Positions 13,570 through 18,842 of a stretch of DNA of 64,000 nucleotides are shown one piece after another; within the stretch, counting starts at the first letter, position 1; every line of letters begins with the position of its first letter. Position numbers and translations under genes: made by a program. Source of the stretch: Geodermatophilus pulveris (GTDB lineage: Bacteria > Actinomycetota > Actinomycetes > Mycobacteriales > Geodermatophilaceae); contig NZ_FZOO01000001.1 of assembly GCF_900188375.1 (NCBI RefSeq), positions 124,001-188,000 of the forward strand, read 5' to 3'. The notes beneath the pieces were generated by a model that was not told the DNA's origin, did not search any database, and worked only from the letters and a program-made list of their open reading frames with translations.

Positions 13570-14448
13570 GTGCAGCGCTGGGGCAACGGACTGAAGACCG
13601 CGGTGCTCCTGGGCCTCATGGGCGGGCTCATCCTGGCCGTCGGGGCCCTCGTCGGCGGCCGCGGCGGCCTGCTGGTCGCCCTGCTGGTGGCGCTGGCGGT
13701 CAACGGGTTCGCGTACGTCAACTCCGACAAGCTGGCCCTGCGGGCGATGCGCGCCTTCCCGGTCACCGAGACGCAGGCGCCGCAGCTGTACGCGATGGTG
13801 CGCGAGCTGGCCACCGAGGCGCGGCAGCCGATGCCCCGCCTCTACGTCAGCCCGACCAGCCAGCCCAACGCCTTCGCCACCGGGCGCAACCCGCGCAACG
13901 CCGCCGTCTGCGTCACCCAGGGCATCCTGGAGCTGCTCGACCGCCGGGAGCTGCGGGGCGTGCTGGCCCACGAGCTGTCGCACGTCTACAACCGCGACAT
14001 CCTGATCAGCTGCGTCGCCGGCGCGATGGCGACCGTGGTCACCTACCTCGCGCACATGGCGATGTTCGCGTCGCTGTTCGGCGGCCGCTCGGAGGACGAC
14101 CGCGGCGGGGGCAACGCCCTCGGCAGCCTGCTGCTGGTCTTCCTCGGCCCGCTGGCCGCCGGCCTGGTGCAGATGGCGGTCAGCCGCAGCCGGGAGTACC
14201 AGGCCGACGCCTCCGGCGCAGCGCTGTCCCGGGACCCGCTCGCGCTCGCGTCCGCGCTGCGCAAGATCGCCGCCGGTGCGGCGGCGCGGCCGCTGCCCCA
14301 GGACGACCGGCTGGTGACCCAGAGCCACCTGATGATCGCCAACCCGTTCCAAGGCCCGGGCCTGGCCTCGATGTTCGCCACCCACCCGCCGATGCCCGAG
14401 CGGGTCGCCCGGCTCGAGCAGATGGCCCGGGAGCCCGGCCAGCGCTGA
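13570..14448 (+). CDS. htpX: membrane zinc metalloprotease HtpX
   Basis: HtpX is an M48-family inner membrane protease that degrades damaged membrane proteins. The 292-residue product has two N-terminal hydrophobic helices ([20 protein letters not shown] and the [17 protein letters not shown] segment). The zinc motif is [12 protein letters not shown] (HExxH form), followed by another hydrophobic stretch and the glutamate ligand region [10 protein letters not shown]. Length matches the family. The GTG start lacks a strong ribosome binding site. It is divergent from korA and convergent with yajQ. Confidence 0.93.
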
Positions 14449-14479: not shown

Positions 14480-14971
14480 TCAGCGGTAGTTGTCGAACTG
14501 CAGGGCGACGTCGAGGTCCTTGCCCCGCAGCAGCTGCTGCACCGCCTGCAGGTCGTCCCGCTTCTTGCCGCTCACCCGCAGCTGGTCGCCCTGGATCTGC
14601 GCCTGGACGCCCTTGGGCCCCTCGTCGCGGATGATCTTGGCGATCCTCTTCGCGGTGTCGGACTCGATGCCCTGCTTGATCCGCGCCGACAGCTTGTGGG
14701 TCTTGCCCGACGCCTGCGGCTCGCCGGCGTCCAGGGCCTTGAGCGAGATGCCGCGCTTGACCAGCTTGTCCTTGAAGACGTCGAGGGCGGCCGTGACCCG
14801 CTCCTCGGTGTCGGCCTGCAGCGTGACCCCGTCCTCGCCGGCCCAGGCGATCGAGGCGTTGGTGCCCCGGAAGTCGAAGCGCTGCGCGAGCTCCTTGGCG
14901 GCCTGGTTGAGGGCGTTGTCGATCTCCTGGCGGTCGACCTTGCTCACCACGTCGAACGACGAGTCGGCCAT
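14480..14971 (-). CDS. yajQ: YajQ family nucleotide-binding protein
   Basis: The product is 163 residues, the standard length, and starts with the family signature [13 protein letters not shown]. Other conserved parts are [31 protein letters not shown] and [19 protein letters not shown]. The start is placed at the ATG at 14971, since the longer frame would add unrelated residues. YajQ proteins bind RNA or nucleotides, and a Xanthomonas member binds c-di-GMP. A GGDEF-EAL gene lies about 1.3 kb away, but the two are not in one operon. Confidence 0.92.
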
Positions 14972-15053
14972 GTGTCGCTGCTCCTTGTCTCCTGCCGTCG
15001 ACCGACCCCGGAACGGCCCGGGGCCGCTCCCGGAGCGGGCCTCCGGTGTCTTG

Positions 15054-15059
15054 TACGCT
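15054..15059 (+). promoter_or_regulatory. candidate -10 box of tRNA-Tyr
   Basis: The hexamer TACGCT lies 18 bases before the first base of tRNA-Tyr. It matches the TAnnnT pattern seen before other stable RNA and ribosomal genes in this window. No good -35 is visible. Confidence 0.4.
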
Positions 15060-15077
15060 CTCTCCCGGCACCACCAC

Positions 15078-15159
15078 GGCGGGTTGCCCGAGCGGCCAAT
15101 GGGAGCGGACTGTAAATCCGTCGGCACAGCCTACGAAGGTTCGAATCCTTCACCCGCCA
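15078..15159 (+). tRNA. tRNA-Tyr (anticodon GTA)
   Basis: The 82-base sequence folds as a class II tRNA with a long variable arm. The seven-base acceptor stem GGCGGGT pairs with ACCCGCC (15152-15158), with discriminator A. The anticodon loop reads CTGTAAA, giving GTA for Tyr. The T arm contains GGTTCGAATCC. CCA is not encoded. A strong hairpin follows 12 bases downstream. Confidence 0.95.
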
Positions 15160-15839: not shown

Positions 15840-15969
15840 GTCACACCAATGGGTGACCGTGCGCCTACACGGGGTCACCACAGGTGACGGCGCGTCGCCC
15901 TCGACGACTTCGTCGTCGCCCAGGCAGGTTGCGCTCTTGCTCCGATCGGGTGACAGGCCGCAGTGTCAC
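15840..15969. promoter_or_regulatory. cluster of GTCAC/GTGAC half-sites in divergent intergenic region
   Basis: The 395-base gap 15661-16055 holds no gene. It contains six GTCAC or GTGAC pentamers forming three pairs: 15840-15857 (spacer 8), 15874-15888 (spacer 5; extended palindrome GTCACC-ACA-GGTGAC) and 15950-15969 (spacer 10, reversed order). The cluster lies between the TadE/TadG-like gene and the TRWGRS-repeat peptide. It looks like a multi-site operator for one or both. The regulator is unknown. Confidence 0.4.
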
Positions 15970-16055
15970 AGGCGCAGTCAGTACCGGATGACGCCCAGCC
16001 CCCGCGCCTGGACGACTGCCATCAACGGACAGCAGCTCTCATACCAGGAGGCGTC

Positions 16056-16160
16056 ATGACCATGACCTCGAACACCTCTGCCCGCGCCACGCGCTGGGGC
16101 CGTTCCACCCGGTGGGGCCGGTCCACCCGCTGGGGCCGGTCCACCCGCTGGGGCTGCTGA
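16056..16160 (+). CDS. 34-residue peptide with tandem TRWGRS repeats
   Basis: I do not recognise this gene. An ATG preceded by CCAGGAGGCGTC (strong ribosome binding site) opens a 34-codon frame. The first eleven residues (MTMTSNTSARA) are polar. Then come three TRWGRS units and a final TRWGC, after which the frame stops. The peptide has four Trp and nine Arg... it is basic, lacks acidic residues, and ends in its only Cys. The DNA repeats are 18 bases with changes at silent or near-silent sites. A c-di-GMP gene starts 141 bases downstream on the same strand. Possible roles are a modified peptide precursor, a signalling peptide or a translated leader. Confidence 0.6.
   Translation: MTMTSNTSARATRWGRSTRWGRSTRWGRSTRWGC
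16089..16157 (+). repeat. four tandem copies of an 18-base coding repeat
   Basis: Units lie at 16089-16106, 16107-16124, 16125-16142 and 16143-16157 (last one shortened to TRWGC). They stay in frame. Unit 2 uses CGG where the others use CGC for the conserved Arg, and unit 1 uses ACG and CGT where later units use ACC and CGG. Such synonymous differences suggest selection on the peptide and not recent slippage alone. Confidence 0.85.
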
Positions 16161-16301
16161 CCCTCCGAGCAGTGCGGCGGGCGGACGGCGATACGCCGGC
16201 TACCCACATCGAGTGCCGTCAGTGCTTCGTCCCAGGAAGGTCGCCGTTGCAGGCTGTTAGCCTCAGCGCGCATTTTCCCTTCCCCGAGAGACCGGACGGC
16301 C

Positions 16302-18842
16302 GTGGCGGATCCCCGCGAGAAGACCGCGCTGCGTCTGTCGTCCCTGAGGCAACCGGGGATGGTGGCGGCGGGAGCTGCCGCGCTGGCCCTGCCCTTCGTC
16401 GTCTTCCTCCTGCACGGGACTCCCGGTCGGTTCCAGCTGTTGGCAGTCGCTGCCCTGGTGGCCGCCTTCTTCGTGTCGGAGTCCGTGACCCTGGACATCG
16501 AGGCGCGTTCGCACGCCTTCCAGTGCACGGTGAGCGAGGTCGTGCTGGTCGTCGCCCTGGTGGAGATGGGCGGCACGTGGACTGCTCTCGCCTGGGGGAC
16601 CGCGACCTTCCTGATCAACGTCCGCGACCGCGTCTCGCTCGCGAAGACCGTGGTCAACGTCGCTGTCGGAGTCGTGCAGGTGGGCGTCGCCGTCGCGCTG
16701 CTGCGCTGGCTACCTGCCGGGGATCTCGCCGACCCACTGACGTGGGTCGCGTACATGCTCGCCATCATCCCGGCGACCGCCACCGGGACGCTCATCGTGG
16801 TCGCAGCCATCACGATCACCCAGGGCTACCCGGGCTTCTCCATGCTGGCCCGGTTGTTCGTCCCGGTGTTGGTGGTGTACCCGGTCTCGGTCGTCGTGGG
16901 GCTGGCCGGCGCGCTGCTCGTGGAGCGGACGCCGTGGGCGTGGCTGCTGGTGCTCCCCGTCGTCGCCGTCCTGGGTCTGCTGTACCGCCGCTTCGCACGA
17001 GTGACCCGGGACAGTGAGCGCCTGGAGCGCGTCTACGACTTCGCTCGCCGCGTCGAGCAGGTCGGGTCGGACGAGGACGTGGCGCGACGCATGGTCGAGG
17101 CCATCCGCGAGCTCCTCAACGCCGAACGCGTCGCGCTGTGGCTGCCGCCGTACCTCGACGAGGAGCCGCGGCTGCTCGTCGCGTCCGACGACGGAGACGC
17201 GTGGTACGAGGGACCGAGCGACCCCGACGACCTCTTCCGGCGCCGGGCGACCGAGGGAGCCAGTGACGGGCCGGTGCTCGTCTCCCTCGCCCGGGCCACC
17301 GAGGCCGAGGCGGCCGCCCTCGCCCGTCGCGGCGCCCGGGACCTGCTCGTCGCCTCGGTGGCCACCGCGGCCGGTGAGCCTGGCTACCTGGAGATCTGCG
17401 ACCGCCGCAGCGACGTCGTCTCCTTCGCCGACGGCGACCGAGCCGCACTGGACTCCATGCTCACCCACGTCAACGCCGCCATCCGCCAGCAGCAGCTGTT
17501 GACCCAGATCCGCTACGACGCCGACCACGACCGGCTCACCGGCCTGCCCAACCGGCAGCGGCTGGCGGTGGAGGTCGACCAGCTGCTCGCCGCGGACCCG
17601 GTCGGCGGCCGGGCGGGGCTGATCCTCGCCTCGCTGGACAACTACACCGAGGTCACCGACACCCTGGGCCACGCCGCCAGCGACGAGCTGCTGCTGGTCA
17701 CCGCCGGCCTGCTCCGCGAGCACGCCCCGCCGCAGGCCCTGGTCGCGCGGATGGAGGGCGACCAGTTCGCCGTCCTGCTCCCCGGGCTGTCGCTGCCCGC
17801 GACCGAGCGGGCCGCCCGCCGGCTGCGGGAGGCCACCTCGACGCGCGCCCGCGTCGCCGGCCTGGACCTCGAGGTCACGCTCACCATCGGCGTCGCCGCC
17901 GCCCCGGTGCACGGCGCGGACGCCGGCACGCTCATGCAGCGCGCCGACGTCGCCCTGCTGGCCGGTGTGGGCAAGAGCGGGGTGGCCAGCTACCACCCGG
18001 TGCTCGACCAGCAGAGCCTGCGCCGCCTGCAGCTGGGCACCGAGCTGGAGCAGGCCATGGCCGACGGCGACATCGGCGTCGTCTTCCAGCCGATCATCGA
18101 CGCCCGCAGCTCCGACATCGTCTCCGTCGAGACGCTGGTGCGCTGGGCGCACCCCCGCTACGGCTCGATCGCGCCGGACGAGTTCATCCACCTCGCCGAG
18201 CAGATCGGCCGGATCGGGCCGCTCACCGATCACGTGCTCGACCTGGCGCTGGCCCGCTGCCGCCGCTGGCTGGACCAGGACATCGCGCTGTCGGTGGCGG
18301 TCAACCTCTCTGCCCGCTGCCTGACCGAGCCGGACCTGGTCGACCGGGTGCAGCGGGCGCTGCGGCGGCACGCCGTCCCCGGTGAGCTGCTCACCCTGGA
18401 GCTCACCGAGGGCAGCGTCGTCGACGACTCGGTGCGCAGCAGCACCGTCCTGGCCGACCTGCACGCCCTGGGGCTGCGCCTGTCCATGGACGACTTCGGC
18501 ACCGGCTACTCCTCGCTGTCCCAGCTGCGCCAGCTCCCGATCGACGAGGTGAAGATCGACAAGTCCTTCGTGCTGGGCATGTCGACCAGCCAGGGCGAGT
18601 CGTTCATCGCCCGGTCGATCATCGAGCTGGCGCACAACCTGGGCCTGCGGGTGGTCGCCGAGGGCGTGGAGGACGAGCTGACCCGCAACCTCCTCGCCGA
18701 GATGGGCTGCGACAAGCTGCAGGGCTTCCTGGTCAGCCGCCCGCTGGCCGACGAGCGGCTGGAGAGCTGGATCCTGGCCCGCGCGGGCGTCCGCTCCGCC
18801 GTCCCCGGCATGCCCCACCGCCGGCTGTTCGTGCGTTCCTGA
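16302..18842 (+). CDS. membrane GAF-GGDEF-EAL protein, probable c-di-GMP phosphodiesterase
   Basis: The 846-residue protein begins with several hydrophobic helices (about residues 15-230), then a GAF-like region (about 240-390), GGDEF (about 400-565) and EAL (about 580-835). The GGDEF site reads MEGDQF, so the signature Gly-Gly-Asp-Glu-Phe is altered and cyclase activity is doubtful. The EAL half keeps VETLVRW, NLSAR, LELTEG, DDFGTGYSSL, EVKIDKSFV, AEGVED and QGFLVSRPL, so c-di-GMP hydrolysis is likely. The GTG start is used. It follows the repeat peptide by 141 bases with no terminator seen between. The membrane part may sense an external signal. Confidence 0.88.
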   Translation: MADPREKTALRLSSLRQPGMVAAGAAALALPFVVFLLHGTPGRFQLLAVAALVAAFFVSESVTLDIEARSHAFQCTVSEVVLVVALVEMGGTWTALAWGTATFLINVRDRVSLAKTVVNVAVGVVQVGVAVALLRWLPAGDLADPLTWVAYMLAIIPATATGTLIVVAAITITQGYPGFSMLARLFVPVLVVYPVSVVVGLAGALLVERTPWAWLLVLPVVAVLGLLYRRFARVTRDSERLERVYDFARRVEQVGSDEDVARRMVEAIRELLNAERVALWLPPYLDEEPRLLVASDDGDAWYEGPSDPDDLFRRRATEGASDGPVLVSLARATEAEAAALARRGARDLLVASVATAAGEPGYLEICDRRSDVVSFADGDRAALDSMLTHVNAAIRQQQLLTQIRYDADHDRLTGLPNRQRLAVEVDQLLAADPVGGRAGLILASLDNYTEVTDTLGHAASDELLLVTAGLLREHAPPQALVARMEGDQFAVLLPGLSLPATERAARRLREATSTRARVAGLDLEVTLTIGVAAAPVHGADAGTLMQRADVALLAGVGKSGVASYHPVLDQQSLRRLQLGTELEQAMADGDIGVVFQPIIDARSSDIVSVETLVRWAHPRYGSIAPDEFIHLAEQIGRIGPLTDHVLDLALARCRRWLDQDIALSVAVNLSARCLTEPDLVDRVQRALRRHAVPGELLTLELTEGSVVDDSVRSSTVLADLHALGLRLSMDDFGTGYSSLSQLRQLPIDEVKIDKSFVLGMSTSQGESFIARSIIELAHNLGLRVVAEGVEDELTRNLLAEMGCDKLQGFLVSRPLADERLESWILARAGVRSAVPGMPHRRLFVRS

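Follow-up and report, generated by a model that had tools for sequence, protein, structure and literature searches.

The window (the whole 64,000-nucleotide stretch of Geodermatophilus pulveris DNA analysed here) contains a short forward-strand ORF encoding a peptide made largely of tandem units, with a gene for a membrane-bound GAF-GGDEF-EAL protein, here termed the receptor, downstream on the same strand. From the peptide stop to the receptor GTG (16302) is 141 nt. The features of the locus are as follows.

15937..15966, forward strand: promoter-like element TTGCTC-N18-CAGTGT, inferred from conservation
15973..16008, forward strand: strongly conserved 5' leader block, GCGCGGTCCGTA..ACGACGCTCTGCCCCCGCGC in relatives, recognised by conservation
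16046..16051, forward strand: Shine-Dalgarno (SD) sequence AGGAGG, 4 nt 5' of the ATG; consensus in relatives GGAGGCGTCATG
16056..16160, forward strand: repeat peptide ORF, 34 aa; leader MTMTSNTSA, then four units R-[A/S]-T-R-W-G, the last followed by C
16256..16263, forward strand: GTTAGCCT box, probable extended -10 of the receptor gene, from conservation against shuffles
16302..18842, forward strand: receptor gene, 846 aa, GTG start; membrane domain, GAF, GGDEF and EAL, from Pfam and motifs
16302..16997, forward strand: N-terminal membrane domain of the receptor, residues 1-232; fold like ECF S-components in an AlphaFold2 model

The translation of 16056-16160 (+) is MTMTSNTSARATRWGRSTRWGRSTRWGRSTRWGC, followed by a stop codon, and contains no acidic residue and one Cys. 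There is a second in-frame ATG at 16062; the start consensus of the relatives, GGAGGCGTCATGA, corresponds to the first ATG. The first-pass annotation of this DNA described a strong ribosome binding site and a distance of 141 nt to the GAF-GGDEF-EAL gene, and both are borne out by the AGGAGG and by the coordinates above. An SD-like motif precedes the peptide ORF in 100 of 103 family loci. The 18-bp repeat of the ORF has the top score (115) among the 98 tandem-repeat rows in the window. The peptide has no match in Pfam, NCBIfam or PHROGs, in keeping with the first-pass annotation, which knew of no family with this layout.

A search with the peptide alone gave matches in 13 of 26 genomes of the genus and 40 of 112 genomes of the family Geodermatophilaceae, and the receptor gene is present in all 21 long loci compared (20 loci of up to 20 kb around peptide matches, plus the window). 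When the first 253 residues of the receptor were used as query, an orthologue was found in 106 of the 112 family genomes, at 112 places. L147, which gave no tblastn match, was dropped beforehand, leaving 111 fetched loci with a located receptor, window included. The genera represented among 33 named loci are Geodermatophilus, Blastococcus, Modestobacter, Klenkia and Goekera. A short Trp-periodic repeat ORF lies directly upstream of the receptor in 103 of the 111. Because Trp spacing was the criterion for recognising arrays, the finding of W in all units partly reflects the method. Omission of the broken arrays of L053 and L097 from the 103 leaves the 101 unbroken arrays described below.

Eight loci (L136, L142-L146, L148 and L149) lack such an array. 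On closer reading L136 encodes a one-unit peptide, MSATRSARTSPRSVRTVRWG, and L142, L143 and L145 have other Trp-repeat ORFs upstream of the receptor. In L148 and L149 the upstream ORFs are Trp-tailed and subtilase-like (PF00082 was confirmed for L148, the one tested), and no clear case of a Trp-repeat ORF was seen upstream of the receptor in L144 and L146. A profile built from 42 of the 103 peptides matched 70 of 298 genomes of the order. Outside the family its single match below E 1e-4 (G190, 6.6e-7) lies within a 633-residue frame, and most other matches are in frames of more than 60 residues; these were not taken as evidence for orthologues of the peptide outside the family. The ORF is a genuine conserved small gene. 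The first-pass annotation had advised a search of relatives for repeat ORFs ahead of GGDEF-EAL genes, and the 103 family loci are the outcome. Absence from relatives and frame-breaking changes in repeat number, either of which it would have taken as a sign of a chance microsatellite, were both checked, and the ORF survived.

The unit is R-[G/S/T/N]-x-[K/R]-W-[G/S/N/T/A], present in 2-5 copies per family peptide (2, 3, 4 and 5 copies in 33, 44, 21 and 3 of the unbroken arrays, respectively). Writing y for the residue after W, there are 51 different x-K/R-W-y cores among the 101 arrays. The K/R place is occupied by K or R in 97 of 101. Two residues beyond W there is always an R in the unit that was compared across arrays; the final unit of an array frequently stops at W-y and lacks it. 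Family peptides are 18-42 residues long with a net charge of +3 to +9. The absence of acidic residues and the single terminal Cys were correctly described for the window peptide, but the Cys is not a general trait of the family: it is rare, occurring anywhere in 8 and terminally in 6 of 103 peptides.

Comparison of adjacent units reveals 179 silent codon differences versus 3 that change the amino acid (873 comparisons, all six positions), against a random expectation of about 3.5 non-silent per silent change, and of 192 base differences 177 affect third codon positions. Position x is hypervariable between species: 14 different residues occur, and x differs in 4486 of 5050 species pairs (89%). 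Within arrays, x differs in 3 of 321 unit pairs, of which 86 differ silently. The silent to non-silent ratio and the pattern at x together indicate concerted change: all units of an array shift between species, after which selection on the protein keeps them the same. The ORF is thus under strong purifying selection. A microsatellite that happens to be open in one frame would equally present as a tandem 18-bp repeat in G+C-rich DNA. However, the 179:3 ratio, the synteny and the conserved start and SD are against this, and the combination of unit identity under selection within genes and variation of x between species excludes it for practical purposes. The repeat ORF at 16056-16160 therefore stands as first described, as real and beyond chance.

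Copy number falls as the bulk of x rises (Spearman -0.72 over the 101 arrays; -0.63 in 60 distinct combinations of unit and number). The trend persists in phylogenetic contrasts (r -0.58 in 99 contrasts; 44 in opposite versus 16 in the same direction, sign p 4e-4), and there is no trend with the Kyte-Doolittle hydrophobicity of x (0.08). Arrays in which x is W or F always have two units, and 92 of 101 arrays contain 3 or 4 W and F residues in all. This near-constant number looks like a fixed total of aromatic contacts.

The peptide gene appears to have its own promoter. TTG and [C/G]A...T of the promoter-like element are kept in relatives, and a loose pattern, applied without a control, occurs upstream of the peptide in all 100 of 100 loci. 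Several GTCACC/GGTGAC boxes lie upstream of this promoter, at 15840-15890 in the window; they resemble AGTGA-n-TCACC, the consensus of the c-di-GMP-responsive regulator BldD. The 5' leader block was found by loose pattern in 97 of 100 loci. Downstream of the peptide stop there is a terminator-like hairpin (mean z -3.1 over 103 loci, 66 of 103 below -2, each locus being compared with only 12 mononucleotide shuffles), but in the window it does not stand out (z -0.43). The GTTAGCCT box is found between peptide and receptor in 90 of 103 loci versus 1 of 103 when shuffled. The promoter-like element, the hairpin after the stop and the box before the receptor suggest that the peptide and receptor genes are probably separate transcription units rather than a leader and its main frame.

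Position just upstream of the receptor on the same strand, the strong conservation of the 5' leader block, the hairpin and a Trp codon in every unit (though partly a product of how the arrays were recognised) would also be expected of a translated regulatory leader, in which receptor expression would be governed by ribosomes translating the Trp/Arg codons or by the hairpin beyond the stop. Leader peptides of attenuated operons share this arrangement of short ORF, hairpin and longer gene; a difference here is the promoter-like box before the longer gene. In addition, such control depends on W codons and not on the identity of x and y between units, whereas here it is the amino-acid identity of the whole unit that is selected and not just the codons for one amino acid. 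Other clades have peptides with signal peptides, or subtilases, at the same place, and nothing was seen that ties tryptophan supply to c-di-GMP. Nor does the 5' leader offer an RNA structure supported by covariation. The consensus fold of 66 leaders with enough upstream sequence, out of 100, has five predicted pairs, one with a change on both sides, and three leaders fold no better than shuffles. At gathering score, Rfam matches in the window are four tRNAs only, none overlapping the leader, and in six loci searched at E<=5 the tRNAs and weak matches obtained all lay outside the leader. A structured RNA in the 5' leader has no support on these grounds. Anti-SD pairing (GACGC with GCGTC) was also dropped, as one genus group loses GACGC yet keeps GCGTC. 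The regulatory leader suggested in the first-pass annotation keeps some plausibility from the hairpin that often follows the peptide, but is made less likely by the promoter-like box between the two genes.

The receptor most likely acts as a c-di-GMP phosphodiesterase, a prediction made because its GGDEF motif is degenerate and its EAL catalytic motifs are conserved. The window receptor has MEGDQF at this place, and canonical GG[DE]EF occurs in 0 of 100 family receptors with letters there. In contrast, the EAL motifs E-T-L (E-L-L in two), ELTE-type, DDFGTGYSSL, K and AEGVE are kept, in all of the 99-100 of 101 receptors with letters at those places.

The membrane domain has no Pfam match. Its AlphaFold2 model (pLDDT 90.4, pTM 0.86) resembles the small-ligand-binding S-components: the first 12 PDB neighbours found by Foldseek are all ECF S-components or metal-transporter M subunits, with weak E-values (best 3.5e-3, none <0.001). 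Among them are 4m5b (NikM; TMt 0.62) and 5kbw_A (TMt 0.71). The sequence does not confirm an S-component fold, since a delta opioid receptor chain (E 0.0047) tops the PDB matches and RibU comes fourth (E 0.18). The receptor would thus share a predicted fold with S-components (RibU, ThiT, BioY) and with CbiM/NikM; it differs in a negligible sequence link to them and in the fusion of the domain to GAF-GGDEF-EAL or HisKA. The N-terminus of NikM lies outside the cell. If the receptor has the topology of NikM, a beta-hairpin at residues 62-77 would, in the model, face outward, in the position that the gate loop has in S-components. The charges of loops 107-116 and 137-144 agree with an outer hairpin; the basic N-terminus and the mildly basic hairpin itself disagree.

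Relatives of the receptor are present in 112 of 298 genomes of the order (51 of them Geodermatophilaceae), 55 of 296 in a class sample and 59 of 296 in a phylum sample, the two samples overlapping slightly. The distant partners described here were found through this receptor search and not through the peptide profile; spurious repeats from the first repeat scan were discarded and only Trp-periodic frames kept. Many of these relatives have a Trp-motif ORF of a different design in front of them. Short ORFs of the form (DGNTWTFV)n and (DGGSWTFA)n precede receptors L193 and L196, and a leaderless MSQTVIATDVTPGALWGYTSGALWG ORF precedes L183. ORFs with signal peptides, judged by eye, end in GVVWL, GAIWG, GLRWY, GRRWI and GTRWGSADRGTRWG (L181, L197, L213, L212 and L252, respectively), and the counterpart in L237, also outside the family, has a signal peptide by the same judgement. 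Long ORFs with tails such as (GRTWA)n, (GLRWN)n and (GSTWT)n also lie before related receptors. All 24 Trp-tailed long ORFs tested against Pfam are subtilases (PF00082); their nearest NCBIfam is mycosin TIGR03921, below cut-off in the two tested. The genome to which the window belongs has two more receptors, L240:3697-5799 and L241:67-1920, each preceded by a Trp-tailed subtilase (PF00082), with tails RTWAGEEWSA.. and DDWQRMSWRA...

A strict rule was applied to these pairings: an ORF with an SD in front of it that stops between -420 and +40 nt relative to the gene start, contains G..W and has <=12 residues beyond the W. It holds for 85 of 108 family receptors (including second copies and the distant L142-L145) and 26 of 53 other receptors, versus 7 of 309 control genes. 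The controls are the remaining gene calls from the 21 syntenic loci and thus not mutually independent. The window peptide itself fails the rule because A or S takes the place of G. Four looser or stricter endings gave control rates of 2.6-11.3%. Receptors with too little upstream sequence (L220, L225, L228, L229) were left out of the 53, and duplicate fetches of one place (L242-L244, L246-L255, L257-L259) were left out of the counts. In the phylum sample the rule holds for 10 of 26 receptors, L311 being left out, and five more (L293, L296, L302, L306, L309) have differently spelled Trp tails. The other 27 of the 53 distant receptors fail the upstream rule, and there is no Trp ORF before some receptors, e.g. 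L146, L147, L224 and L245. Counted among the failures are L194, L199 and L216, preceded by repeats without Trp (SSGEVGS, GSSVN and GASLT); in these lineages the Trp anchor may have been replaced. At the level of whole genomes, with counts taken for those that have 3 or more matches, an excess of a (GxxWx)4 DNA pattern was found in 26 of 55 genomes with the receptor versus 5 of 241 without (p 2e-17). The excess was taken over a reversed-pattern control because the background in G+C-rich genomes is large.

L296, L297, L305 and L318, from other Actinomycetota, join this membrane domain to histidine kinases, and L319 joins it to GGDEF alone. Trp-tailed subtilases also precede the histidine-kinase versions in L296, L305 and L318, which argues that the Trp motif probably pairs with the membrane domain rather than with c-di-GMP chemistry; in L297 and L319 there is no Trp-tailed subtilase within reach. 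Arg-rich peptides that bind c-di-GMP are known, for example CleD. The conserved Arg and Trp, the lack of a signal peptide in the family and a neighbour whose product breaks or makes c-di-GMP would suit an intracellular peptide that binds c-di-GMP itself, by Arg and Trp stacking, or binds the EAL/GGDEF domains. As the motif accompanies histidine-kinase outputs and elsewhere carries signal peptides, this is improbable.

Two further explanations bear on the genes around the peptide. Pfam names could be given to 11 of the 14 neighbouring window genes (eight of metabolic or housekeeping type, namely polyprenyl synthetase, GSDH, pyridoxamine oxidase, POR, aminotransferase, SecE and two MaoC/FAS1 dehydratase-type; and M48, Tad and DUF520), and the other three match no family. 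No RiPP modifying enzyme was recognised among the 14; nor was an immunity gene, or one dedicated to export, recognised in these searches of window neighbours. A RiPP precursor, as raised in the first-pass annotation, would have a leader and identical cores as seen here, and an R at a constant distance from W would suit modification by an unlinked enzyme, for example to a W-x-R cyclophane. The lack of a maturase recognised by Pfam among the 14 neighbours, the last units that end before this R and the occurrence of the motif in relatives on long subtilase tails and secreted-looking peptides make this option highly improbable. A cationic, Trp-rich product might instead be an antimicrobial, secreted or acting on membranes, whose gene lies beside the receptor gene only incidentally, but the probability of this is slight, given its syntenic and near-universal presence in the family, the phylum-wide pairing with one receptor domain and the lack of recognised immunity or export genes.

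The region around the beta-hairpin also shows some co-change between peptide and receptor. By mutual information, the strongest single column for y is residue 74 (z 6.6), and K/R points to residue 63 (z 5.8), both in the hairpin; for x, 9 of the 12 best columns are in the cytosolic domains. These raw values are confounded by ancestry. Co-change was measured on a tree built from the cytosolic part of the receptor only. Co-change with residues 60-92 exceeded that with the rest of the membrane domain for x (p 0.007), K/R (p 0.002) and copy number (p 0.003), p-values that are optimistic because the hairpin was picked after the mutual-information result had been seen. There was no enrichment in this region for y, in spite of its mutual-information column, or for position G. 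A very low p for G against cytosolic branch rates vanished against other membrane-domain columns and was not used.

The conserved pairing, units that vary between species yet are identical within arrays, some co-change with the membrane domain and the phylum-wide pairing with Trp motifs together make it reasonably probable that the peptide is a stand-alone, species-tuned, dedicated ligand or regulatory partner of the adjoining receptor; its contact with the receptor, its export and its function are inferred from these comparisons. The suggestion in the first-pass annotation that the membrane protein senses the peptide has therefore gained strong comparative support. Within each unit, Trp would serve as the anchor for recognition by the S-component-like membrane domain, with the hairpin 62-77, counterpart of the gate loop, as the probable contact site; x and K/R would provide species-specific contacts. 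Binding could alter the output through the GAF-(degenerate GGDEF)-EAL region, such that the peptide raises or lowers c-di-GMP breakdown. The equal copies may act as one multivalent ligand, or cleavage of a precursor at Arg may release short peptides of identical sequence; the former is favoured by the near-constant 3-4 W/F per array. The peptide might act from outside after export, or from inside. No hydrophobic signal was seen by eye in the family peptides, which counts against a ligand for an outer site, although many of the counterparts beyond the family have one.

A broader reading, put forward tentatively and held at a little under even probability as a whole, is that this locus belongs to a widespread, undescribed peptide-sensing module of the Actinomycetota. 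GxxW polypeptides (tandem-copy peptides, small secreted peptides and subtilase tails) would be paired with S-component-like receptors wired to c-di-GMP breakdown or to histidine kinases. In the Geodermatophilaceae the ligand would have shrunk to a peptide of 20-40 residues, its variable residue serving as a species address that co-evolves with the gate hairpin.

Similar arrangements are known among peptide pheromones and their receptors, such as the yeast alpha-factor with its tandem precursor and the autoinducing peptides of Gram-positive bacteria. Shared features are a ligand gene beside the receptor gene, variation between species with constancy within them, and, as in alpha-factor, tandem identical copies separated by basic residues. 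By contrast, the family peptide has no signal peptide by eye and its cleavage is only proposed, while the receptor is of another fold, with c-di-GMP or kinase output and without evidence here of density sensing. The Trp-repeat C-terminal tail of the subtilases (PF00082) occupies the place of the short peptide beside related receptors; the window peptide corresponds to the repeat part alone, without a peptidase. The period-5 Trp tails of two subtilases weakly match pentapeptide repeats (L318, PF13599, below cut-off; L314, PF00805, 20.5 bits against a cut-off of 20.2), and these two tails may fold like pentapeptide-repeat helices. The family peptide differs in having period 6, and other short ORFs period 8, with Trp at a fixed place.

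To our knowledge, the control of most membrane-bound GGDEF-EAL proteins is unknown, and we know of no member in the Actinomycetota with a known peptide ligand. A gene-encoded partner beside the receptor across a whole family would open this question, and the rule of internal identity of the units can be tested by simple swaps. A peptide-sensing membrane domain would give the S-component fold a new use. A full-text search, with subscription journals mostly outside it, found no published description of the peptide, of the pairing of Trp tails with receptors or of an S-component-like GGDEF sensor. The passages found in PMC8325347 and PMC9686282 do not describe the peptide.

Two neighbours of the peptide gene recur in the 21 syntenic loci (the window and L039-L058). 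A YajQ/DUF520 gene (14480-15127, reverse strand, in the window) is near the peptide gene in 18 of the 21; YajQ is elsewhere a c-di-GMP-binding protein. A gene for an M48 (Ste24/HtpX-type) membrane peptidase (13570-14448, forward strand, in the window) is present in 10 of the 21, and its product would be a candidate for the processing step, should the peptide be cleaved.
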